DNA of 64,000 nt, from positions 1,674,001-1,738,000 of the forward strand of contig NZ_CP062804.1 of assembly GCF_008801925.2 (NCBI RefSeq). Direction: 5' to 3'. This document shows, in pieces, positions 12,615 through 22,640 of this stretch. The translations under genes and the position numbers were made by a program. Each line of letters begins with the position of its first letter. Position 1 is the first letter of the stretch. The notes beneath the pieces were generated by a model. That model had not been told where the DNA came from. It saw only the letters and a list, made by a program, of their open reading frames with translations, and searched no databases. The stretch is from Cupriavidus basilensis. GTDB taxonomy: Bacteria; Pseudomonadota; Gammaproteobacteria; Burkholderiales; Burkholderiaceae.

Positions 12615-13229
12615 CTACAAGTGACTACGCATTCCTTCAAAGCTGACCTTGAGCATGTGCTCGACGATCGCGTCGGTGCCCAGCTTGCTGTACAGCTGCA
12701 GGTAATCCACGGCCGGATCGCAAGTGCGCGCGTAATAGCTGAACAGAATCACATCGTCGGGGAGCGACGGATCGAGCTCGCCCGCCGCCTTGGCCTCGGC
12801 CACGAGCTTTTCCAGTTGCCGGTTGAGCTTGAGCACGCGCGTGACGTAGCGCAGGTTGCGCGTGAGCATCTCGCGCACATGCGGGCTGGTGGATGGCAGG
12901 AACGGCAGCCCGCCGGTCAGGCGTACGCGCAGCGCCCACTCGAGCAAGGCGCGCAAGCGCGCCAGCCCCGTCAGATCGCCCGGGAGCTGCTCCAGGTACT
13001 CGAGCGCGCCGTCGATCAGCCGGATCAATGCTTCGCCGACCAGATCTTCCTTGGATTTGAAGTGCTTGTAGAGGCTGGGCTTGGAGATGCCAACCTCCAG
13101 CGCCACGTCGTCCATGGTCATCAGGTCGAAGCCCTTGCCAGCCAGGATGCGGGTCGCCGCATCGAGGATCGCGTCCTCACGCAGCTTGAAAGCCTGGTCC
13201 TTGAAACTCAGCCTGCCGAAAATACTCAT
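12615..13229 (-). CDS. TetR-family transcriptional regulator
   Basis: 204-aa repressor-type protein. The N-terminal HTH is typical: ILDAATRILAGKGFDLMTMDDVALEVGISKPSLYKHFKSKEDLV (about residues 20-63). The C-terminal ligand-binding domain is all-helical. It is transcribed divergently from the eight-gene lipid/redox operon, with 188 bases between the starts, so it most likely represses that operon and itself. A perfect palindrome at 13243-13254 lies 14 bases upstream of its ATG. The inducing ligand is unknown; a fatty-acid derivative or an oxidised lipid would fit the operon (inference). Confidence 0.88.
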   Translation of the reverse strand: MSIFGRLSFKDQAFKLREDAILDAATRILAGKGFDLMTMDDVALEVGISKPSLYKHFKSKEDLVGEALIRLIDGALEYLEQLPGDLTGLARLRALLEWALRVRLTGGLPFLPSTSPHVREMLTRNLRYVTRVLKLNRQLEKLVAEAKAAGELDPSLPDDVILFSYYARTCDPAVDYLQLYSKLGTDAIVEHMLKVSFEGMRSHL

Positions 13230-13242
13230 TAGTAAATCTCGC

Positions 13243-13254
13243 TACTATGTAGTA
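13243..13254. promoter_or_regulatory. Probable TetR operator TACTATGTAGTA
   Basis: Perfect 12-bp palindrome (TACTA-TG-TAGTA) in the divergent region, 14 bases from the tetR start. A further TTAGTAA copy overlaps the tetR ATG (13229-13235), so TAGTAA occurs twice in the same orientation and pairs with TACTA in between. Such overlapping half-sites close to the regulator's start are typical of TetR autoregulation. Confidence 0.6.
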
Positions 13255-13417
13255 ATCTTTTTTCCAACTCGGTACGAAACCATCTTAGCACCCATCCAGG
13301 CAAAGCGATGTCGAATTCAGGAAATCCCCAGCACTGCCGCCCTGCAACCGCCGCCAGCCAAGCTGCCACAAGGGCTGGCGCCATTGGCGAGCGCGCGCTC
13401 GCCAGCAAGGAGCCGGC

Positions 13418-14761
13418 ATGAGCGGCGCGCCCGGAACCTATCCGCGCGGCCAGCGCGTCGCCGTCGTCGGCGCAGGCATCTCTGGCCTGGCAAGCGCCTA
13501 TCTGCTGTCGCGTCGGCACAACATCACACTGTTTGAAGCCGGTAACTACCTGGGCGGGCATACCAACACGGTCGAGGTCGAGCTGGAGGGGGTACGCCAT
13601 CCCGTGGACACCGGCTTCCTGGTGTTCAACGACCGCACCTATCCCAACCTGATCGCGCTGTTCGCCGAGCTTGGCGTCACGGCCTATCCCACCGATATGT
13701 CGTTCTCCGTATCGCTGGACCAGGGACGGCTGGAATGGGCCGGCAGCAACCTCAACACCGTGTTCGCGCAGCGCCGCAACCTCTTCTCGCCCAGCTTCCT
13801 GTCGATGCTGCGCGATATCGTGCGCTTCAACGGTGCCGCCGAGCGCAACCTTGCGCTGGCCACCCAGAGCGGCTGCTCGGTGGACCAATTGCTGCTCGAC
13901 GGCGGCTATGGCCAGCCGTTTCGCCACAACTACCTGCTGCCGATGGCGGCGGCGATCTGGTCCAGCGCGACCGCCGATATCCTGCGTTTCCCTGCCGCCA
14001 CCTTCCTGCGCTTTTGCCTGAACCACGCCTTGCTGCAGGTCAACAACCGGCCGCAGTGGAAAACGGTGCAGGGCGGCGGGCGCGACTATGTACGGCGGAT
14101 CGCCGCACAACTGGCGCAGCGCGATGCCGCCATCCGGATATCGACGCCCGTGCGCAGCATCCGCAGGCATGACCACGGCGTTGACCTGCTGACCGACGAT
14201 GGCCCCGAGCACTTCGACGCGGTGGTGCTGGCCACCCACGCGCCCACCACGCTGCGCATGCTGGCCGACGCGGATCCCGGCGAGCGCCGTACGCTTGGCG
14301 CGGTCCAGTACCAGCCTAACCTGGCGATCCTGCATACCGATCCGGCCCTGCTGCCGCGCCGGCGCAAGGTGTGGTCAGCCTGGAACTACCTGGGCGGAGC
14401 CGCTGGCACCCACGATGCGGGCGCGGGCACGCACGATCATGCCGGCCACACCCGCCCGGTCTGCGTGAGCTACCTGTGCAACCAGCTCCAGCCATTGCCC
14501 TTCAAGACCCCGGTGGTGGTAACGCTCAACCCCATCTCCGCGCCAGCGCCCGGCACGGAACTGGGCCGCTACCACTACCAGCACCCGGTCTTCGACCTGG
14601 CCGCCGTGGCAGCGCAGTCCGCGCTGCCCGCGCTGCAGGGTCGGCGCCGCACCTGGTTTGCCGGGGCCTGGACGGGCTACGGCTTCCACGAGGACGGACT
14701 CAAGTCCGCGCTGCGCGTGGCCGCCGATTTCGATGCGCTGCCGGACTGGGCCAGGCTATGA
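13418..14761 (+). CDS. FAD-dependent oxidoreductase of the fatty-acid modification operon
   Basis: 447-aa flavoprotein of the amine-oxidase/phytoene-desaturase superfamily (COG2907-like). The dinucleotide motif VAVVGAGISGLASAYLL starts near residue 13 and is followed by TLFEAGNYLGGHTNT; the C-terminal FAD motif is WFAGAWTGYGFHEDGLKSA. Relatives are encoded beside cyclopropane-synthase-like methylases, and some act as acyl-chain desaturases in furan fatty acid synthesis. First gene of an eight-gene operon; its stop overlaps the next ATG (ATGA at 14758-14761). An acyl-lipid substrate is inferred from context. Confidence 0.82.
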   Translation: MSGAPGTYPRGQRVAVVGAGISGLASAYLLSRRHNITLFEAGNYLGGHTNTVEVELEGVRHPVDTGFLVFNDRTYPNLIALFAELGVTAYPTDMSFSVSLDQGRLEWAGSNLNTVFAQRRNLFSPSFLSMLRDIVRFNGAAERNLALATQSGCSVDQLLLDGGYGQPFRHNYLLPMAAAIWSSATADILRFPAATFLRFCLNHALLQVNNRPQWKTVQGGGRDYVRRIAAQLAQRDAAIRISTPVRSIRRHDHGVDLLTDDGPEHFDAVVLATHAPTTLRMLADADPGERRTLGAVQYQPNLAILHTDPALLPRRRKVWSAWNYLGGAAGTHDAGAGTHDHAGHTRPVCVSYLCNQLQPLPFKTPVVVTLNPISAPAPGTELGRYHYQHPVFDLAAVAAQSALPALQGRRRTWFAGAWTGYGFHEDGLKSALRVAADFDALPDWARL

Positions 14762-15615
14762 GCGGCATGGAAGACCACCTCGCCAGCAGCCCCGCCGGCG
14801 CGCCGCCCGCGTGGTTGCTACTTGGCCGCGTGATGCATGAACGCCTGCGTCCCGCACGGCACCGCTTTGTGTATCCAGTGTTCTACCTGCGCTGCAATCT
14901 CGACCGCCTGCCTGCCTTGCGCCACTGGTGGTTCGGCATCGACCGCTGGGCGCCGCTGTCACTTGCCACGCGCGACTACGGCCCGCGCGATGGCAGCGAC
15001 CTGGCCGCGTGGATGCGCAAGCTGCTGGCCGAAGCCGGCCTGCCGGCCGATGGCGAGATCTGGCTGCAGACGTTCCCGCGCGTGTTCGGCTATGCCTTCA
15101 ACCCGGTGAGCTTCTGGCATTGCCATGACCGCGCCGGCCAGTTGCGCGCGGTGCTGGCCGAGGTCAACAACACCTTCGGCGCCAGCCACCGTTACCTGCT
15201 GTGCGCGCCCGACCGTTGCGCAATCGGTCCCGACACCGTGCTGACCTGCCACAAGGCGCTGCATGTGTCGCCGTTCTGCGTGGTCGAGGGCAGCTATGCG
15301 TTCCGCCTGCGCGAAACCGGCGGCACCAGCTTTGCCGGCGTCGACTACTACGACGCCACGGGCCTCCTGATCCGTACCGCGATCGGCGGGCGCCGCCTGC
15401 CGTTCTCGCGCGCCAATGTGCTGGGTGCGCTGGCGCGCCAGCCCTGGCTCACGGTGTCGGTGATGGCGCGCATCCACTGGCAGGCTCTGCGGCTGTGGCT
15501 GAAGAACGTGCCGTTCCGCGGCAAAGATCCGGGCCCCGGTGCCGATCCGCCCGGCCCGACCAGTTTCCCCAACCCCTCCGCCAACCTGTCGCAGTTCGAG
15601 GAAAACAAGCCATGA
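14758..15615 (+). CDS. DUF1365 family protein
   Basis: 285-aa protein with the DUF1365 signature: GRVMHERLRPARHRFVYPVF near the N-terminus, then PRVFGYAFNPVSFWHC, VLAEVNNTFGASHRYLL, and KALHVSPF. These conserved His/Asn/Tyr clusters suggest an enzyme, but no reaction is proven for the family. It is almost always found between the FAD oxidoreductase and the cyclopropane-synthase-like methylase, so a step in modifying membrane acyl chains is likely. Start by ATGA overlap with the previous gene; its own stop overlaps the next ATG in the same way. Confidence 0.88.
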   Translation: MSGMEDHLASSPAGAPPAWLLLGRVMHERLRPARHRFVYPVFYLRCNLDRLPALRHWWFGIDRWAPLSLATRDYGPRDGSDLAAWMRKLLAEAGLPADGEIWLQTFPRVFGYAFNPVSFWHCHDRAGQLRAVLAEVNNTFGASHRYLLCAPDRCAIGPDTVLTCHKALHVSPFCVVEGSYAFRLRETGGTSFAGVDYYDATGLLIRTAIGGRRLPFSRANVLGALARQPWLTVSVMARIHWQALRLWLKNVPFRGKDPGPGADPPGPTSFPNPSANLSQFEENKP

Positions 15616-16826
15616 CGCCCTCTCGCGCGCTAACCCTGCCGCCCGACGGTGCCCCTGCGTCAGCCCGTCTTTTCTTAACCCTGCTCGAGCGCATCCGCGT
15701 TGGCCACCTGTTGCTGGTCGCGCCCTCGGGCGAGCAGCGCCTGTTTGGCGATCCGCATGCCGCACCGGGCGCGCGCCTGGAACTGCGTGACTGGCGTGCC
15801 AGTGCCGAGATCCTGCGCGCGGGGGACATTGGTTTTGCCGAGGCCTACCGCGCAGGCTGGCTCGATACGCCGGACCTCACCGCGCTGTTGCGCCTGGCCA
15901 TCCGCAATGAGTCCGCGCTGCCGCGGACCGTGGTCGGCAGCTGGCTGGCGCGGTGGTGGTACGGCCTGCGCCACCGGCTGCGCCCCAACAGCCGCACCGG
16001 CAGCCGCCGCAACATCCACGCGCACTATGACCTGGGCAACGCCTTCTACCAGCGCTGGCTGGACCCGACCTGGACTTACTCCGCCGCGCTGTTCCAGGGC
16101 GAGCGGGGCCGGCCGCTGGAAGCCGCGCAGGACGCCAAATACCAGCATATCGTCGACACGCTTGGCCTCAGGCCCGGCATGCGCGTGCTGGAAGTGGGCT
16201 GCGGCTGGGGCGGCTTTGCCATGCACGCGGCAAGGCAAGGGATCCAAGTGCACGGCATCACCATCTCCGCCGCACAGCTTGAGGTAGCGCAGCAGCGCGT
16301 GACCCAGGCCGGGCTGGAAGGGCTCGTCCGGCTGGAGCTGCGCGACTACCGGGATCTCGATGGCGAGTACGACGCCATTGTCTCCATCGAGATGTTCGAG
16401 GCCGTGGGCGAGCGCTATTGGCCCGGCTACTTCCAGATGCTGCGCCAGCGCTTGCGGCCCGGCGCGCGCGCGCTGGTGCAGTCGATCACCATCGAAGAGC
16501 AGCGCTTCAAGGCCTACCGCGCGAGCAGCGACTTTATCCGCGAGTACGTGTTCCCGGGCGGCATGCTGCCCAGCCCCGAGCGATTCCTGAAGGCTGGGTT
16601 GCGGGCCGGGCTGGAAAGCCGCGTCACGCTGGTGTTTGGCCCGGACTATGCCGAGACGCTGCGGCGCTGGCGCGCGGCCTTCGAGCAGGCGCTCGATGAT
16701 GTCACCGCACAAGGCTTCGATACGGTCTTCATCCGTACCTGGCGCCTGTACCTGTGCTACTGCGAAGCCGGGTTCGACGAAGGCCGCACCGACGTCATGC
16801 AGTTCGTGCTGCAGCGGCAGGCCTGA
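15612..16826 (+). CDS. Cyclopropane-fatty-acyl-phospholipid synthase-like methyltransferase
   Basis: 404-aa SAM-dependent enzyme acting on unsaturated phospholipid acyl chains. Motifs in order: IHAHYDLGNAFYQRWLD, SAM-binding VLEVGCGWGGFAMHAA, HGITISAAQLEVA, IEMFEAVGERYWPGYF, EYVFPGGMLPSPERF and C-terminal LYLCYCEAGFDEG. All belong to the Cfa family, including the bicarbonate/active-site segment. Homologues in this operon type either make cyclopropane rings or add a methyl branch on the way to furan fatty acids (UfaM-like); sequence alone does not separate them. ATGA overlap with the DUF1365 gene. Confidence 0.88.
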   Translation: MTPSRALTLPPDGAPASARLFLTLLERIRVGHLLLVAPSGEQRLFGDPHAAPGARLELRDWRASAEILRAGDIGFAEAYRAGWLDTPDLTALLRLAIRNESALPRTVVGSWLARWWYGLRHRLRPNSRTGSRRNIHAHYDLGNAFYQRWLDPTWTYSAALFQGERGRPLEAAQDAKYQHIVDTLGLRPGMRVLEVGCGWGGFAMHAARQGIQVHGITISAAQLEVAQQRVTQAGLEGLVRLELRDYRDLDGEYDAIVSIEMFEAVGERYWPGYFQMLRQRLRPGARALVQSITIEEQRFKAYRASSDFIREYVFPGGMLPSPERFLKAGLRAGLESRVTLVFGPDYAETLRRWRAAFEQALDDVTAQGFDTVFIRTWRLYLCYCEAGFDEGRTDVMQFVLQRQA

Positions 16827-16827
16827 C

Positions 16828-17358
16828 ATGCGCCGCGTTGCCGCCGCCCTCGCCATGGCCCTCCTCTGTGTCCCAGCGCTTGCCGCCGCGGGCTGGCGCG
16901 CAGACGTGCAAGCCGCCCGCTTGTCGGGCGAAGGCGAATTCCGCGTGTTTGGATTTCGCCTCTATACCGCCCAGCTATGGAGCGCACAGCTGCCGATCAC
17001 GCCGGACGCGCCCTTTGCGCTGCAACTCACCTACGACCGCAGCATCCAGCGTGAGCGCCTGGTAGAAACCAGCCTGGACGAGATGAAGCGCATCGGCAGC
17101 GCCGGCAACGCGCCGCCCAGCCCGCAGTTACTGGATAGCTGGCGCGCCAGCATGGCGCAGGCGTTTGTCGACGTGCGCCCGGGCGACACGCTCACCGGCG
17201 TGTTCATGCCCGGCAAGGGCGTGCGCTTCTACGCTGGCGATCGGCTGACCACCGAGATCGACGACCCCGCCTTCGCGCAGGCGTTTTTCTCGATCTGGCT
17301 CGACCCCGCCACGCGCGCGCCGGCGCTGCGCCGGCGCCTGCTCGGGCTCGCGCAATGA
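16828..17358 (+). CDS. Exported chalcone-isomerase-like protein
   Basis: 176-aa protein with a cleavable signal peptide (MRRVAAALAMALLCVPALAAAGW). The mature part carries the bacterial chalcone-isomerase-like fold: FRVFGFRLYTAQLW, then LQLTYDRSIQRERLVETSLDEMKR and YAGDRLTTEIDDPAFAQAFFSIWLD. Such proteins in this operon family are thought to bind fatty acids rather than flavonoids. It begins two bases after the methylase stop and overlaps the transporter start by four. It probably works in the periplasm on, or as a carrier for, acyl chains (inference). Confidence 0.78.
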   Translation: MRRVAAALAMALLCVPALAAAGWRADVQAARLSGEGEFRVFGFRLYTAQLWSAQLPITPDAPFALQLTYDRSIQRERLVETSLDEMKRIGSAGNAPPSPQLLDSWRASMAQAFVDVRPGDTLTGVFMPGKGVRFYAGDRLTTEIDDPAFAQAFFSIWLDPATRAPALRRRLLGLAQ

Positions 17359-18677
17359 CCGCACCGCACCTCGGCAGCGCGGCAGCCACGACGCCCGCCG
17401 CGCCCAATCCGGCCCTCCCCGCGCCCGCCCCGGCATCCGCCATGGCTGCCTATGGCCTGCTCGGCATGCCGCTGGCCATGGCGGCCTTGCCGGTCTACGT
17501 GCAGGTGCCAGCCTACTACGCGAGCGAGCTCGGGCTGGCCTTGTCCGCGACCGGCACGGTGTTGTTCGCCGCGCGTCTGCTCGATACCGTGCAGGACCCG
17601 TTCCTCGGCCGCTGGATCGACCACCTGGCGCAGCGCGGCAAGCTGGCGCCGGCGTTGTGGCTGGCGTGCCTGGTGCTCTCGGCCTCCTTTGCCATGCTCT
17701 GGCTGCCGCCCGTGCGCGGCGGGGCGCTGGCCGCCTGGCTGGCGCTCTCGCTGGTACTGGTCTATAGCGCGCACAGCGTGGTCAACATTGCTTACCTGGC
17801 CTGGGGCGCGCGCCTGTCTCGCGAGCCGGCCACGCTGACCCGCGCCGCGGCCTGGCGCGAGGCAGCGGGCCTGGCCGGGGTGATGCTGGCCAGCGTCCTG
17901 CCTGCCTGGCTTCTGGGCGCATCGGGCTGGCCCGCCGCGCCGGCCATGGCGGGCTATGCCTTGGTGTTCGCCGCCTTGCTGCTGGGGGCGCTGGCGTTGC
18001 TGCTGCGGCGCGCGCCGGCCTGGCGCCACCACAGCGCTGGCGTGCACGGCTGGCGCGCCACGCTCGCCAACCGCGCATTCCGGCGCCTGCTGCTGCCGTA
18101 TTTCCTCAACGCGGTGTCGGTCTCGATACCGGCCACGCTGGCTCTGTTCTTCATCCAGGATCGGCTGGGCGCGCCGCAATGGTCCGGCGCGTTCCTCGCC
18201 GCCTATTTCGCGGCGGGCGCTGCCGGCCTGCCGCTCTGGACCCGGCTTTGCGCGCGCATCGGCCCCACGCGGGCCTGGCGGCTTGGCATGGTGCTGGCGG
18301 TGGCCGCTTTTGTCTGGGCGGCCGGCCTGGACACAGGCGACACCGGGGCCTACCTGGCCGTGTGCGTGCTGGCGGGGCTTGCGCTTGGCGCCGACCTGGC
18401 GCTGCCGCCGGTGCTGCTGGCCTGCCTGATTCCCCCCGGCGAGCAACCCGGCGGCTACTACGGCATCTGGAGCCTGCTGGGCAAGCTGGCGCTCGCGCTG
18501 TCTGGCCTGGCGCTGCCATTGCTGGCCTGGTGCGGCTACCAGCCTGGCGCGGGCGGCACGGCGGCCGGCAGCCATGCCCTGGCGCTGGTCTACGGCGGCC
18601 TGCCCTGCCTGTTCAAGCTCGCCGCCATGCTGTGCCTGCGCACGGCCCCGGCACCACTGATGGAGGACCCGACATGA
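17355..18677 (+). CDS. GPH/MFS-type transporter
   Basis: 440-aa integral membrane protein with about twelve hydrophobic segments. The cytoplasmic loop after helix 2 reads RLLDTVQDPFLGRWIDH, the signature of the glycoside-pentoside-hexuronide:cation symporter branch of MFS. Members of this branch also occur in the photo-oxidative-stress operons that contain the same flavoprotein, DUF1365 and methylase genes, where the cargo is unknown; a lipid or lipid precursor is possible. Overlaps both neighbours by ATGA. Confidence 0.82.
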   Translation: MTAPHLGSAAATTPAAPNPALPAPAPASAMAAYGLLGMPLAMAALPVYVQVPAYYASELGLALSATGTVLFAARLLDTVQDPFLGRWIDHLAQRGKLAPALWLACLVLSASFAMLWLPPVRGGALAAWLALSLVLVYSAHSVVNIAYLAWGARLSREPATLTRAAAWREAAGLAGVMLASVLPAWLLGASGWPAAPAMAGYALVFAALLLGALALLLRRAPAWRHHSAGVHGWRATLANRAFRRLLLPYFLNAVSVSIPATLALFFIQDRLGAPQWSGAFLAAYFAAGAAGLPLWTRLCARIGPTRAWRLGMVLAVAAFVWAAGLDTGDTGAYLAVCVLAGLALGADLALPPVLLACLIPPGEQPGGYYGIWSLLGKLALALSGLALPLLAWCGYQPGAGGTAAGSHALALVYGGLPCLFKLAAMLCLRTAPAPLMEDPT

Positions 18678-19231
18678 TTCGCCTTGACCCTTCGCACTGC
18701 GGCAAACGCCTGCTGCTGTACGCCGCGCTATGGCTGGCTGGCTGCGCCGGCCCGGAAGTTTCCCAGTATGCGCAGCAGCAGCCCGTGCTCGATGTGCCGG
18801 CTTTCTTCGGCGGCAAGACCGAGGCCTGGGGCATGTTCCAGAAACGCAGCGGCGAGGTCGTCAAGCGCTTCACGGTAGCCATCGAGGGCCGCCGGCAAGG
18901 CAGCGATTTCGTACTGGACGAGCACTTCACCTACAGCGACGGCAGCACCGAGCAGCGCACCTGGACGCTGGCGCGCCAGCCCGATGGCACCTGGCGCGGC
19001 CGCGCCGGCGACGTGGTGGGCGAAGCGATCGGGCACAGCGCGGGCAACGCGCTGAACTGGCGCTACACGCTGCGGCTGCCAGTGGGAGACACCACGTATG
19101 ACGTGCAGTTCGACGACTGGATGTACCTGGTCGACGCGCGCACCATGATCAATCGCGCCAGCGTCTCGAAATTCGGTTTCGAGGTTGGCCAGGTCACGGT
19201 GTTCTTCCGGCGCCCGCAATCGCCGCAATAG
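18674..19231 (+). CDS. DUF3833 lipoprotein
   Basis: 185-aa protein with a lipobox at LWLAGC (about residues 19-24) after a short hydrophobic stretch, so it should be lipid-anchored. The body matches the DUF3833 pattern: FFGGKTEAWGMFQKRSGEVVKRF, DEHFTYSDGS, YTLRLPVGDTTYDVQFDDWMYL. Function is unknown, but the family travels with this operon in many Gram-negatives. Its beta-rich body suggests a lipid-binding barrel (inference). Start by ATGA overlap with the transporter. Confidence 0.83.
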   Translation: MIRLDPSHCGKRLLLYAALWLAGCAGPEVSQYAQQQPVLDVPAFFGGKTEAWGMFQKRSGEVVKRFTVAIEGRRQGSDFVLDEHFTYSDGSTEQRTWTLARQPDGTWRGRAGDVVGEAIGHSAGNALNWRYTLRLPVGDTTYDVQFDDWMYLVDARTMINRASVSKFGFEVGQVTVFFRRPQSPQ

Positions 19232-19286
19232 CCGCATCAGCCGCAATGAGCCAATCGCGGCTGCGGCGCAAATCAGAGAGGCAACC

Positions 19287-20072
19287 ATGGCCTGGACGGC
19301 ACTCAACCCCCGCTGGACGGATTGGCGCGAAAAGCGGGTCTGGCTGGTCGGCGCATCGAGCGGCATCGGCGCGGCGCTGGCGCGCGCCCTGCTTGCGCGC
19401 GGCGCCTGGGTAGCCCTGTCGGCGCGCCGGGCTGAAGCCCTCAAGGCGGTTGCCGGCGATCACGCCACGGCGCTGCTGCTGCCGATGGATGCCACCGATC
19501 CCGATGCCTGGCGCCAGGCGCATGACACACTGCGCGAGACCTGGGACGGCGTGGACCTGGTGGTGTTTTGCGCCGCCGACTATCGTGCGTTGCGCCCCTG
19601 GGAGCTGGAGGCCGCGAGCGTGCGCCACACCATCGAAACCAACCTGAACAGCGTCTACTACGGGCTGCAGGCCACGCTTGCCGACATGCTCGCGCGCGGC
19701 AGTGGCAGCTTGGTGCTGGTCGCCAGCGTGGCCGGCTACATGGGCTTGCCCAACGCCACCGTCTACGGGCCGACCAAGGCCGCGCTGATCAACCTGGCCG
19801 AACTGCTCTACGCCGAGCTGCATCCGCGCGGGCTGGGCGTCTATCTGGTCAACCCGGGATTCGTCAAGACACGCCTGACGGCCAACAACGCGTTCCCGAT
19901 GCCTGCCCTGCTCACCCCCGAGGCCGCCGCCGAGGCCATCCTGCACGGGCTGGCGCGCGGCCGCTTCGAGATCGATTTCCCGCGCCGCTTCACCCTCGTG
20001 CTCAAGTTCGCCAGCCTGTTACCCTACCGGCTGCGCCTTGCGGCCCTGCAAAAAGTGATGGACGCGCCGTGA
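19287..20072 (+). CDS. Short-chain dehydrogenase/reductase
   Basis: 261-aa SDR. The NAD(P) motif VWLVGASSGIGAALARALL lies near residue 18, then NLNSVYYG, the catalytic Ser in LVLVASVAGYMG and YGPTKAAL for Tyr/Lys. A C-terminal segment (RFTLVLKFASLLPYRLRLA) is amphipathic and may contact membrane. AGAGAGG gives a good Shine-Dalgarno for 19287 after a 55-base gap, the largest in the operon, so a secondary start of transcription is possible. Likely reduces or oxidises a lipid carbonyl or hydroxyl (inference). Its stop overlaps the next start as TGATG. Confidence 0.85.
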   Translation: MAWTALNPRWTDWREKRVWLVGASSGIGAALARALLARGAWVALSARRAEALKAVAGDHATALLLPMDATDPDAWRQAHDTLRETWDGVDLVVFCAADYRALRPWELEAASVRHTIETNLNSVYYGLQATLADMLARGSGSLVLVASVAGYMGLPNATVYGPTKAALINLAELLYAELHPRGLGVYLVNPGFVKTRLTANNAFPMPALLTPEAAAEAILHGLARGRFEIDFPRRFTLVLKFASLLPYRLRLAALQKVMDAP

Positions 20073-20545
20073 TGCCATTGACTGGCCCGAACGCACTGAC
20101 GGAGTTGACCAACTTGACCGAGCCGACCGGGCTGACAGCCCTGCTGCGATGGTACGAAACGCTCTCGCCCGCCTCGCTGGGCGACATCGCGCGCTTCTAT
20201 TCCGACGATGCCCGCTTCAAGGATCCCTTCAACGATGTGCGCGGACGCGAGGCGATCCGCCGGATCTTTGCGCATATGTTCGTCGCCACGGACAACCCGC
20301 GCTTTGTGATCGGTGAGCAATTCCGGAAACCGGGCCAGGCGTTTGTGCTGTGGGACTTCCACTTCACCCTGAAGGGCAAGCCTTACCACGTGCACGGTAG
20401 TTCGCATTTTTGCTTTGGCGACGATGGGCGCGTGACACTCCATCGCGACTACTGGGACGCCGCGCAGGAGCTTTGGCAGCAACTGCCCTGGCTAGGGCCG
20501 CTGGTAGGCTGGCTGCGCCGGCGCTTCGCCACGCCACTTTCCTAG
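20072..20545 (+). CDS. SnoaL/NTF2-like protein
   Basis: 157-aa protein of the nuclear transport factor 2 fold: WYETLSPASLGDIARFYSDDARFKDPFNDVRGREAI and later HGSSHFCFGDDGRVTLHRDYWDAAQEL. Pockets of this fold bind small hydrophobic ligands; some are isomerases or cyclases. It is the last gene of the operon and coupled to the SDR by TGATG. The pair SDR plus SnoaL is a constant part of related operons. Specific activity unknown. Confidence 0.8.
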   Translation: MPLTGPNALTELTNLTEPTGLTALLRWYETLSPASLGDIARFYSDDARFKDPFNDVRGREAIRRIFAHMFVATDNPRFVIGEQFRKPGQAFVLWDFHFTLKGKPYHVHGSSHFCFGDDGRVTLHRDYWDAAQELWQQLPWLGPLVGWLRRRFATPLS

Positions 20546-20712: not shown

Positions 20713-21183
20713 ATGAACCTCACCGTCCACGACCTCCTGGCCTTGGCCAGCGCCAGTATCCTGACCGTGACCGTGGTCGCCATCCACTACGAAGCCCTGC
20801 GACTGCTGTCCGGCATGAATCCGCGCCGCTGGACCGGCCGCGTCAACGTTGGCGTGCTGATTGTCTGCATCATCCTGGCCCATAGCCTTGAAGCCATGGT
20901 GTTCGCCGTCGGCTACTGGGTCGCGGGCAATGTGCTGGGCCTGGGCGGCCTTACCAGCGCCCATCCCATCACGCCCATCGTCTACCTCTACTTTTCACTT
21001 GAAACCTTCACCACGCAAAGCCTGGGCGACATCGCGCCGATCGGCGCCACGCGCCTGCTCGCCAGCATCGAGCCGCTGGTGGGCCTGATCCTGATCGGCT
21101 GGTCGACCTCCTTCACCTACATCATCATGCGCCGCGACTGGCCAACCGGCACCTCCAGGCAAGCGGCGCAAGCGGATCTGTAG
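20713..21183 (+). CDS. Small ion-channel-like membrane protein
   Basis: 156 aa with four hydrophobic segments (about 7-30, 45-72, 94-106 as pore helix, 116-134). The region YFSLETFTTQSLGDIAPIG aligns with the two-helix potassium-channel pore loop, where the filter is normally TVGYGD; here it reads TQSLGD, so K+ selectivity is doubtful. GAACATCCCG and AGGAATGCCC precede the ATG, the second providing the ribosome site. It stands alone between the lipid operon and cardiolipin synthase. Similar short proteins are annotated as ion channels without proof. Confidence 0.7.
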   Translation: MNLTVHDLLALASASILTVTVVAIHYEALRLLSGMNPRRWTGRVNVGVLIVCIILAHSLEAMVFAVGYWVAGNVLGLGGLTSAHPITPIVYLYFSLETFTTQSLGDIAPIGATRLLASIEPLVGLILIGWSTSFTYIIMRRDWPTGTSRQAAQADL

Positions 21184-21206: not shown

Positions 21207-22640
21207 TTACAGGATCGGCGCAAATAGCGTGGCCACGTGCATCGCCACGCGGCGCAGCGTCGGCGCAGCGGTGTATTCGCTGCGCTCGATCTGGCAGGCC
21301 TGCGCGAAGTCCGCCTCCAGCATGCGCGTCACGCTAGCGGTAAAATCGCGGTCCGCGGTCATCACCATCAGCTCGAAATTGAGCCGGAACGAGCGGTTGT
21401 CGAGGTTTGCGCTGCCGACCGCCGCGGCCTCATCGTCGATCAGGATAACCTTCTGGTGCAGGAAGCCCGGCTGGTAGCGATAGAGCTTCACGCCCGCGCA
21501 GACGGCCTGGTAGGCATACAGGGTGGAGGCGGCGAACACCACGAGATGGTCGGGGCGCGCCGGCAGCAGGATGCGTACGTCAACCCCGCGCAGCACCGCC
21601 AGCCGGAGCACGGCGAACACGGCCTCGTCCGGCACGAAGTACGGGCTGGTGATCCACACCCGCCAGCGCGCCGCCTGGATCGCCTCGACGAAGAACAGCG
21701 AGCAGGTCTCCTGCGCGTCGGCGGGGCCGGACGGCACCACCTGGCAGGTCATGCCCCCGGCAGGTGCTGCCGGCGGGGGCAGCAGCATCGGCACCTCCCG
21801 CGCGGCCCAGAACCAGTCTTCGGCAAACACCATCTGCAAGTCCAGCACCGCGCTGCCGCGGATCTCGATATGCGTGTCGCGCCAGGGCGCCAGCGGCGGC
21901 TTTAGCCCGACGTACTCGTTGCCGACGTTATGACCGCCCGTAAACGCGCACTCCCCGTCCACCACCACCAGCTTGCGGTGGTTGCGGAAATTGAGCTGGA
22001 AGCGGTTGACAAAGCCGCGCCGCGTGGCAAAGGCGCGCGCCTCCACCCCGGCGGCCAGCAGCACCTTGACGTACTGGCCCGGCAACGCATGCGAGCCGAT
22101 GCTGTCGTAGAGGAAATACACCTTCACGCCCGCGGCAGCGCGTTCACACAGCAGGCTCTGCAGGCGCCGTCCAAGCGCATCGTCGTGGACGATGAAGAAC
22201 TGCACGATCACCACCTGCCGCGCCGCGGCGATCGCGGCAAAGATGGCCTCGAACGTCGCCTCGCCGTTGACCAGCAGCCGCACCGCGTTGTTGGCCAGGC
22301 ACGGCATGCCGGTCAGCCGGGGCAAGGCGCGCAGGTAAGGCTGGGGGGGCGAGTGCACGACGCTGGCGTCGCGTGCCTCGCGCTCGTGCGGCTCCATCTC
22401 GTGCGTGACCTCGCGCAGCCGGTCGTTGTTGAAGCGCCGGGCGTTCACGTAGCCGGCAAAACTCCTGCTGCCGAGGATCAGGTAAGGGATCAGCGTGAAG
22501 TACGGCATCATCACCAGCGAGCCGGCCCACGCAATGGCGCCGGGCGCGGTGCGCACGGTCATGACCGCGTGCAAAGCCGCAACGACGCCAAGCAGATGGA
22601 ATACCAGCACGATCGCCGCGACGAGGGAGGGGCTGAGCAT
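21207..22640 (-). CDS. cls: Cardiolipin synthase (phospholipase D family)
   Basis: Condenses phosphatidylglycerol to cardiolipin at the inner membrane. Two N-terminal membrane helices (about 5-27 and 37-56) are followed by two HKD motifs: His221-Lys223-Asp228 in [11 protein letters not shown] and His395-Lys397-Asp402 in [11 protein letters not shown], each trailed by GGHNVG or [10 protein letters not shown]. The 477-aa length fits ClsA-type enzymes. It is convergent with the channel gene and divergent from the aldo/keto reductase. Confidence 0.92.

Follow-up and report, generated by a model that had tools for sequence, protein, structure and literature searches.

Which regulator governs a probable furan fatty acid (FuFA) operon of Cupriavidus basilensis, and what might this regulator sense? 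The question is raised by a locus within a stretch of 64,000 nucleotides of the 8.94-Mb genome of this bacterium (contig NZ_CP062804.1, positions 1,674,001 to 1,738,000; hereafter, the window, to which all coordinates refer), where eight tightly packed genes on the forward strand (13418-20545) are divergent to a gene encoding a TetR-family regulator. In the excerpts of the published accounts that are cited here and below, control of FuFA genes is described as involving either ChrR (PMC7380195) or the light-linked regulator LitR (PMC9758184). The interpretation that we favor, with a probability of about three in four, is that the window contains a FuFA operon under its own divergent TetR, likely a repressor, that would act on a tandem operator. 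An earlier note on this DNA had described a TetR-controlled lipid-modification operon; this observation is real and meaningful, with the amendments that the operator is an array and that the claimed ligand sensing is left at two live readings.

The tetR gene (12615-13229, reverse strand) encodes a protein of 204 residues with a TetR_N domain (PF00440) and an R168-x-C170-D171-P172 signature; between its start at 13229 and the start of the first operon gene at 13418, there are 188 bases. The operon opens with genes for the putative core enzymes in the order ufaD-ufaO-ufaM: a ufaD-like FAD-dependent oxidoreductase (13418-14761; Amino_oxidase/NAD_binding_8, PF01593 and PF13450), a putative fatty-acyl desaturase judging by its family and neighbors; a ufaO-like DUF1365 protein (14758-15615; PF07103, 249 bits against a cut-off of 25), by family a putative furan-forming oxygenase; and a ufaM-like S-adenosylmethionine (SAM)-dependent methylase of the CMAS family (15612-16826; PF02353). 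The following genes, also on the forward strand, encode a chalcone-isomerase-like accessory protein (Chalcone_3, PF16036; 16828-17358), an accessory MFS_2/GPH-type carrier (PF13347; 17355-18677), an accessory DUF3833 protein (PF12915; 18674-19231), an accessory short-chain dehydrogenase (SDR; adh_short, PF00106; 19287-20072) and, as the final gene of the operon, a SnoaL-like protein (SnoaL_2, PF12680; 20072-20545). Four junctions are ATGA overlaps (14758, 15612, 17355 and 18674), and the others are a one-base overlap at 20072, a one-base gap at 16827 and a 55-base gap ahead of the SDR gene. Coordinates, Pfam families and the sequence itself thus bear out the eight genes and every junction that the earlier note had listed.

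The pairing of this TetR with ufa genes is not specific to one strain but common to many genera. A scan with the TetR sequence alone found 172 relatives, of which the best 80 were kept for the analysis of gene neighborhoods, and all 80 are encoded divergently beside ufaD. By record titles, these relatives come from Cupriavidus, Pandoraea, Herbaspirillum, Janthinobacterium, Duganella, Undibacterium, Iodobacter, Deefgea, Chitinibacter and other genera, the closest named ones belonging to C. basilensis (95% identity); a named relative in C. metallidurans likewise carries the TetR. Among 60 genomes of the genus, a TetR orthologue was detected in 17 and DUF1365 in the same 17 (hypergeometric probability 3e-15, uncorrected for kinship); 16 of the orthologues show 75-100% identity, and the one in genome G046 is recovered as two pieces (78% and 62%). 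In this Cupriavidus genome, the tetR and ufaO copies (locus L089) both look frame-disrupted, with split matches. Across 399 genomes of the order, a TetR family profile (E up to 1e-25) matched in 68, and 66 of these (all except G353 and G584) encode DUF1365, which is present in 197 of the 399 (hypergeometric probability 7e-21, again uncorrected for kinship). In 20 of the 23 genomes where the profile match reached at least 300 bits, tetR is adjacent to the DUF1365 gene; the other three have no listed place for DUF1365, and one of them (G274) has ufaD beside tetR. The divergent TetR is, then, probably the operon's own regulator. The replacement of a sigma/anti-sigma pair by TetR, as the earlier note had put it, holds at the locus itself, and the arrangement extends more widely, to many genera.

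The region between tetR and ufaD contains a predicted array of operators. Two 12-bp dyads with centers 20 bp apart, O1 (TACT-CATT-AGTA; 13223-13234) and O2 (TACT-ATGT-AGTA; 13243-13254), are followed by a third half-site, RGTA (GGTA in the window; 13271-13274, forward strand), 20 bp past the right half of O2. O1 overlaps the start codon of tetR as well as codons 2-3. Of the eight exact TACTN4AGTA matches in the genome, two are O1 and O2; the reversed pattern has 22 matches. We compared 94 distinct upstream regions, with identical ones removed before counting and the disrupted L089 copy included. In O2, the TAC and GTA columns show a conservation of 1.00, an invariance that is partly by construction, because the columns were anchored on the best motif match within 60 bases. 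Independent of this anchoring are the distance of the O2 dyad from the tetR start codon, 12 or 13 bases in 92 of the 94 regions, and the third half-site, with RGT found at the same spacing in 93 of 94. The O1-O2 spacing is 20 bp (68 regions) or 21 bp (24), with single cases of 32 and 39 bp; both halves of O1 are present in 91 regions, and two of the three exceptions (L139 and L203) fit if a GTG start is allowed. The overlap of O1 with coding DNA appears to lock codon 2 of tetR: all 84 serines at this position are encoded by AGT, which accounts for 146 of the 1190 serine codons elsewhere in these genes, and the remaining 10 genes have glycine, encoded by GGT in nine. With a 20-bp step, TetR dimers would all lie on the same side of the helix, which makes cooperative binding likely. 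Farther toward ufaD lies a conserved ATCTTAGCAC block (13282-13291, forward strand), a possible -10 or start region of the ufaD promoter; the corresponding alignment columns (37-45) are moderately conserved, and the block in the window is shifted by about three bases relative to them. The operator that the earlier note had placed at 13229-13254 is thus real, exceeding chance in the rarity of its pattern and the conservation of the array, but is incomplete as described, being part of a tandem array that extends into codons 2-3 of tetR.

The earlier note had also called for a survey of the operon's neighbors across Burkholderiaceae; our survey covers 80 Burkholderiales loci, selected by hand (40 from 94 DUF1365-positive genomes, with one genome used twice, and 40 from 197). 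Near ufaO, LitR was found at 30 loci, an extracytoplasmic function (ECF) sigma factor with RskA at 22, a close relative of the window TetR at nine, a distant TetR at four and no detected regulator at 15. A label denotes a match at 1e-40 whose start lies no more than 9 kb upstream or 7 kb downstream of ufaO; the hidden Markov models (HMMs) of the regulators were built from the same loci, and nearness is not control. At two loci (L153 and L161), LitR lies more than 5 kb downstream, and the unlabeled class includes weaker MerR-like matches (L124-L126). The view that similar gene sets are under ECF/ChrR or light-responsive control is sustained insofar as LitR or an ECF/anti-sigma pair is found near related operons, but the representative anti-sigma factor that was scanned in these Burkholderiales is of the RskA type, not ChrR. 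On a UfaD tree of 91 rows, the regulator labels are clustered, with 15 changes against a mean of 51.4 for shuffled labels. Taken label by label, there are eight changes for LitR, five for ECF, four for TetR, three for distant TetR and eight for none; those forced by well-supported branches of this quick tree, in which 22 of the 88 inner branches are open, number six, three, one, three and seven, respectively. These sequence comparisons point to several exchanges of the regulator on the ufa operon, and the close TetR state may have a single origin.

The dyad follows the TetR gene across the survey. In the 420 bases ahead of ufaD, an exact copy of the dyad occurs at eight of the nine close-TetR loci, none of the four distant-TetR loci and one of the other 67 (L159); the close-TetR locus that lacks it there is L172, whose TetR and site are 1.5 kb away. 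The distant TetRs beside ufaD (33-47% identity) each have an ACT-N4-AGT dyad of their own (4/4), namely GAACT-N4-AGTTC at L152, L160 and L154, and TGACT-GATG-AGTCA at L169. When exact five-base arms around ACT-N4-AGT were required, matches were found at all four distant-TetR loci, none of the 30 LitR loci, none of the 22 ECF loci and one of the 15 unlabeled loci, compared with 23 of 8100 base-shuffled regions. The unlabeled dyad locus, L159, suggested a TetR elsewhere in its genome (G348), which indeed encodes a homologue with 45% identity, located next to a Chalcone_3 gene and a one-mismatch dyad. Genome G386 has a ufa locus without the dyad (L163) and no TetR homologue at 1e-15. Seven of the eight TetR homologue loci examined have an ACT-N4-RGT dyad just upstream, with one mismatch allowed, and L308 has none. 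Thus, the operator array is associated with the presence of TetR. In 11 TetR genomes, the exact pattern CTACTN4AGTAG occurs zero to three times per genome; the ufa site is such an exact match in five (G035, G104, G127, G241 and G290), and three (G015, G411 and G526) have no exact site. A wider regulon is not supported by these counts, which do not exceed those of the reversed control (two to six) in any of the 11 genomes, but sites away from ufa may include further targets.

Some distant homologues extend this picture. At L304, L305 and L307, TetR homologues of about 50% identity have a GAACT-N4-AGTTC dyad and an adjoining divergent gene for a small protein, which is a fasciclin-domain protein by Pfam at L304 and by eye at the other two, possibly a second branch of targets. 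A distant TetR at L306 is preceded by two dyads (1446 and 1466, the second with one mismatch), whose 20-bp period matches that of the window array.

Hidden control by one of the other regulators is disfavored. At E 1e-4, the HMMs of LitR, ECF and RskA found nothing in the window, where ChrR was not sought by HMM, and no LitR was found in the C. basilensis genome at E 1e-12, in a scan that recovers LitR in both LitR-type control genomes. Among 12 TetR-type genomes tested, 11 lack LitR, and in G411 there is a weak match that spans 79 residues. The C. basilensis genome has two Cupin_7 (ChrR) matches, on C3 and C1, and the window is on C2, so that no ECF/ChrR pair was found near the operon; these ChrR candidates might still act on it from a distance.

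The TetR_N helix-turn-helix and the TetR fold place the regulator in the TetR family; 19 NCBIfam models of named equivalogs (FadR, BetI, AcrR, KstR, RutR and others) match, all below cut-off. In its AlphaFold2 model (pLDDT 91.9), the nearest folds by Z score are PvrA (17.3) and the bacterial-hormone receptor 7ky1 (16.9), followed by DarR, FadR and KstR2 (about 16). These neighbors include TetRs linked to acyl-CoA, along with many others. PvrA, a TetR of Pseudomonas aeruginosa (PDB 7w2q and 8hjb; 20% identity), controls fatty-acid use genes, and palmitoyl-CoA promotes its DNA binding (PMC12323585); FadR of Bacillus subtilis (PDB 3whb and 3whc; 15% identity) is, by PDB titles, a regulator of fatty-acid degradation. 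The TetR might bind an acyl-CoA, a fatty acid or a modified acyl chain reversibly and report the state of membrane lipids rather than oxidation, a possibility that we rate somewhat short of even. However, identity to the fold neighbors is 15-22%, dissimilar TetRs score alike (DarR, 16.3; gamma-butyrolactone receptor, 15.7; RutR, 14.9), and UfaM and UfaO work on phospholipid chains, which leaves no obvious soluble ligand. With so many fold matches within one or two Z units, the ligand is not readable from the fold.

The second reading of the signal centers on C170, through which the TetR might sense oxidants or lipid-derived electrophiles, as a redox sensor for the same stress in place of the light (LitR) and singlet-oxygen (ECF/ChrR) sensors. 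The earlier note had suggested an oxidized or unusual fatty acid as the inducer, and the invariant cysteine would suit an oxidant or electrophile sensor just as well. This residue is the sole cysteine of the window TetR and the only cysteine column that is invariant in an alignment of 75 sequences with identities as low as 35%. The R-x-C-D-P motif is present at 35 of 35 loci of one set and in 108 of 109 rows of an earlier, overlapping set, the miss being the disrupted L089 copy, and in none of 13 other Cupriavidus TetRs. The counterpart operons respond to light (PMC9758184) or to loss of ChrR (PMC7380195). Nevertheless, an invariant cysteine may be structural or line the pocket, and the 108 homologues of normal length include 46 with a single cysteine, 58 with two and four with three, so that some could use others; on balance, we consider redox sensing through C170 unlikely, though worth keeping beside the lipid-ligand reading. 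More speculative still, and doubtful in our view, is that the R-x-C-D-P subfamily with its 20-bp-period operator could be an old FuFA-linked stress switch, its cysteine reading oxidized or electrophilic lipid, and would represent a third independent solution beside LitR (light) and ECF/ChrR (singlet oxygen), repeatedly exchanged.

The product of the operon is, judging from the sequence, probably a FuFA. The enzymes expected of the pathway are all represented: a DUF1365 protein, a phytoene-desaturase-like FAD/NAD oxidoreductase (phytoene desaturase NCBIfam models match the ufaD-like protein below cut-off) and a CMAS-type methylase distinct from cyclopropane fatty acid (CFA) synthase. The improbable alternative is that the operon yields cyclopropane or simple methyl-branched chains and is no FuFA system, for which the membership of the methylase in the CMAS family can be cited. 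We take Cys139, His240 and His266 to be the catalytic sites of Escherichia coli CFA synthase, in whose numbering the positions are given. In an alignment to this enzyme (6bqc), the window methylase lacks all three equivalents, having A158, A264 and Q290 in their place. The operon methylase copies of the survey carry H240A and H266Q in 64 of 64 cases and C139S/A in 62 of 64, whereas both histidines are retained in 29 of the 41 aligned sequences of other CMAS copies from these loci; the A/Q pair occurs in 12 of these other copies, probably UfaMs beyond the distance cut. Position 139 is less decisive, with cysteine in just 25 of 42 other copies, so that the two histidines discriminate between UfaM and CFA synthase more clearly than this position does, and the altered residues may serve as a UfaM marker. 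Furthermore, the CFA-synthase NCBIfam scores are under cut-off (PRK11705, 236.9 against 400), and ufaD and ufaO adjoin the methylase gene. Of the resemblance to furan and cyclopropane systems proposed in the earlier note, the FuFA-type operon stands by families and neighbors, and the cyclopropane product is disfavored by the residue pattern of the methylase.

The ufaD-ufaO-ufaM core corresponds to an already known pathway. In this pathway, vaccenate chains are methylated by UfaM and desaturated by UfaD, and UfaO (DUF1365) forms the furan with O2; RSP1087, 1088 and 1089 of Rhodobacter sphaeroides are dispensable for the FuFA product (PMC7380195), which fits considering the other five window genes accessory. 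The window operon resembles the R. sphaeroides RSP1087-1091/ufaM system in encoding UfaD, UfaO and a SAM-dependent fatty acyl methylase and in having extra operon genes of the kind not needed for the product there (PMC7380195). It differs in that R. sphaeroides ufaM is far from ufaD and ufaO (PMC12089945), whereas the window ufaM is adjacent to them, and in that the R. sphaeroides system, raised by ChrR loss, involves ChrR in its control (PMC7380195), whereas the window has a tetR gene. The ufaM cluster of Pseudomonas is similar in that genes for an SDR, a FAD oxidoreductase and proteins of unknown function are probably co-transcribed with ufaM, but has a LitR regulator (PmlR1) and a photolyase gene in the region, and its ufaM is induced by light 25-33-fold (PMC9758184). 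In the open-licence literature, none of the matches listed deals with control of ufa genes by a TetR.

Several observations weigh against control of a FuFA operon by this TetR. The ufa names of the window genes are putative, assigned by family and neighbors. The upstream regions and tetR genes are kin, so the nominal p-values are too strong, the counts being made over relatives. The ufaD upstream region contains no consensus match to a sigma-70 promoter, and the placement of the operators relative to the promoter is accordingly a proposal. In the five-base-arm test, close-TetR loci matched in four of 10 cases, with no match in the window itself, because the outer base varies; in G006, G469 and G250, the sole exact CTACTN4AGTAG site lies away from ufa; and in G469 (L172), TetR and its operator are set apart from ufaD by about 1.5 kb of additional sequence. 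The sign of regulation could also differ, activation being possible, considering that the DNA binding of PvrA, the nearest fold, is improved by its ligand and that this protein acts as an activator of some genes (PMC12323585). Finally, by hand count, TetR lies within 4 kb of DUF1365 in 27 of the 68 order genomes and does not in 33, with six having no listed DUF1365 place and two no DUF1365; the 45 genomes below 300 bits comprise seven adjacent cases, all 33 elsewhere, three that are unjudgeable from the listing and the two without DUF1365. Adjacency follows closeness to the window TetR, so that tight pairing would be a trait of the close subfamily, with most distant kin located elsewhere. That TetR is a chance neighbor controlling only itself or another gene, as those 33 cases and three genomes of family f30 (where distant homologues adjoin a small gene, fasciclin-type in the one scanned, rather than ufa genes) might suggest, is very improbable in view of the 80 of 80 kept relatives beside ufaD, the co-occurrence in the same 17 genus genomes, the third half-site on the ufaD side and the confinement of the non-adjacent cases to distant members.

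Under the favored model of TetR control, UfaM would methylate phospholipid cis-vaccenate, UfaD would desaturate the methylated chain and UfaO would insert O2-derived oxygen, closing the furan ring, with the remaining five genes in accessory roles. TetR dimers would occupy two or three dyads at 20-bp intervals, each with the core ACT-N4-AGT, in a stretch that takes in the tetR start codon and the region ahead of ufaD. At O1, TetR would block tetR, resulting in autoregulated repression; at O2 and the third half-site, it would block the ufaD promoter, perhaps near the ATCTTAGCAC block. The repressor would most likely be released by an intracellular lipid-derived or oxidative signal.

Beyond the operon, the window encodes an ion-channel-domain protein (20713-21183) and a large convergent open reading frame (21207-22640), phospholipase D/cardiolipin synthase-like by eye. 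Six terminator-like sites were detected against 4.2 expected, and none was used as evidence. Downstream of ufaO at L078 (G015), the operon is rearranged, with chi and CMAS copies on the opposite strand.

The operon probably makes FuFAs that are protective in the cell membrane. If TetR control is real, one gene and one operator array would provide a simple handle to switch on the pathway in non-phototrophs, and the signal that calls for FuFAs in the dark would become testable. The apparent fixing of synonymous codon choice by an operator within its own regulator gene is easily testable as well. More broadly, the ufa locus family appears to offer a natural example of one regulator replacing another while the operon stays constant.

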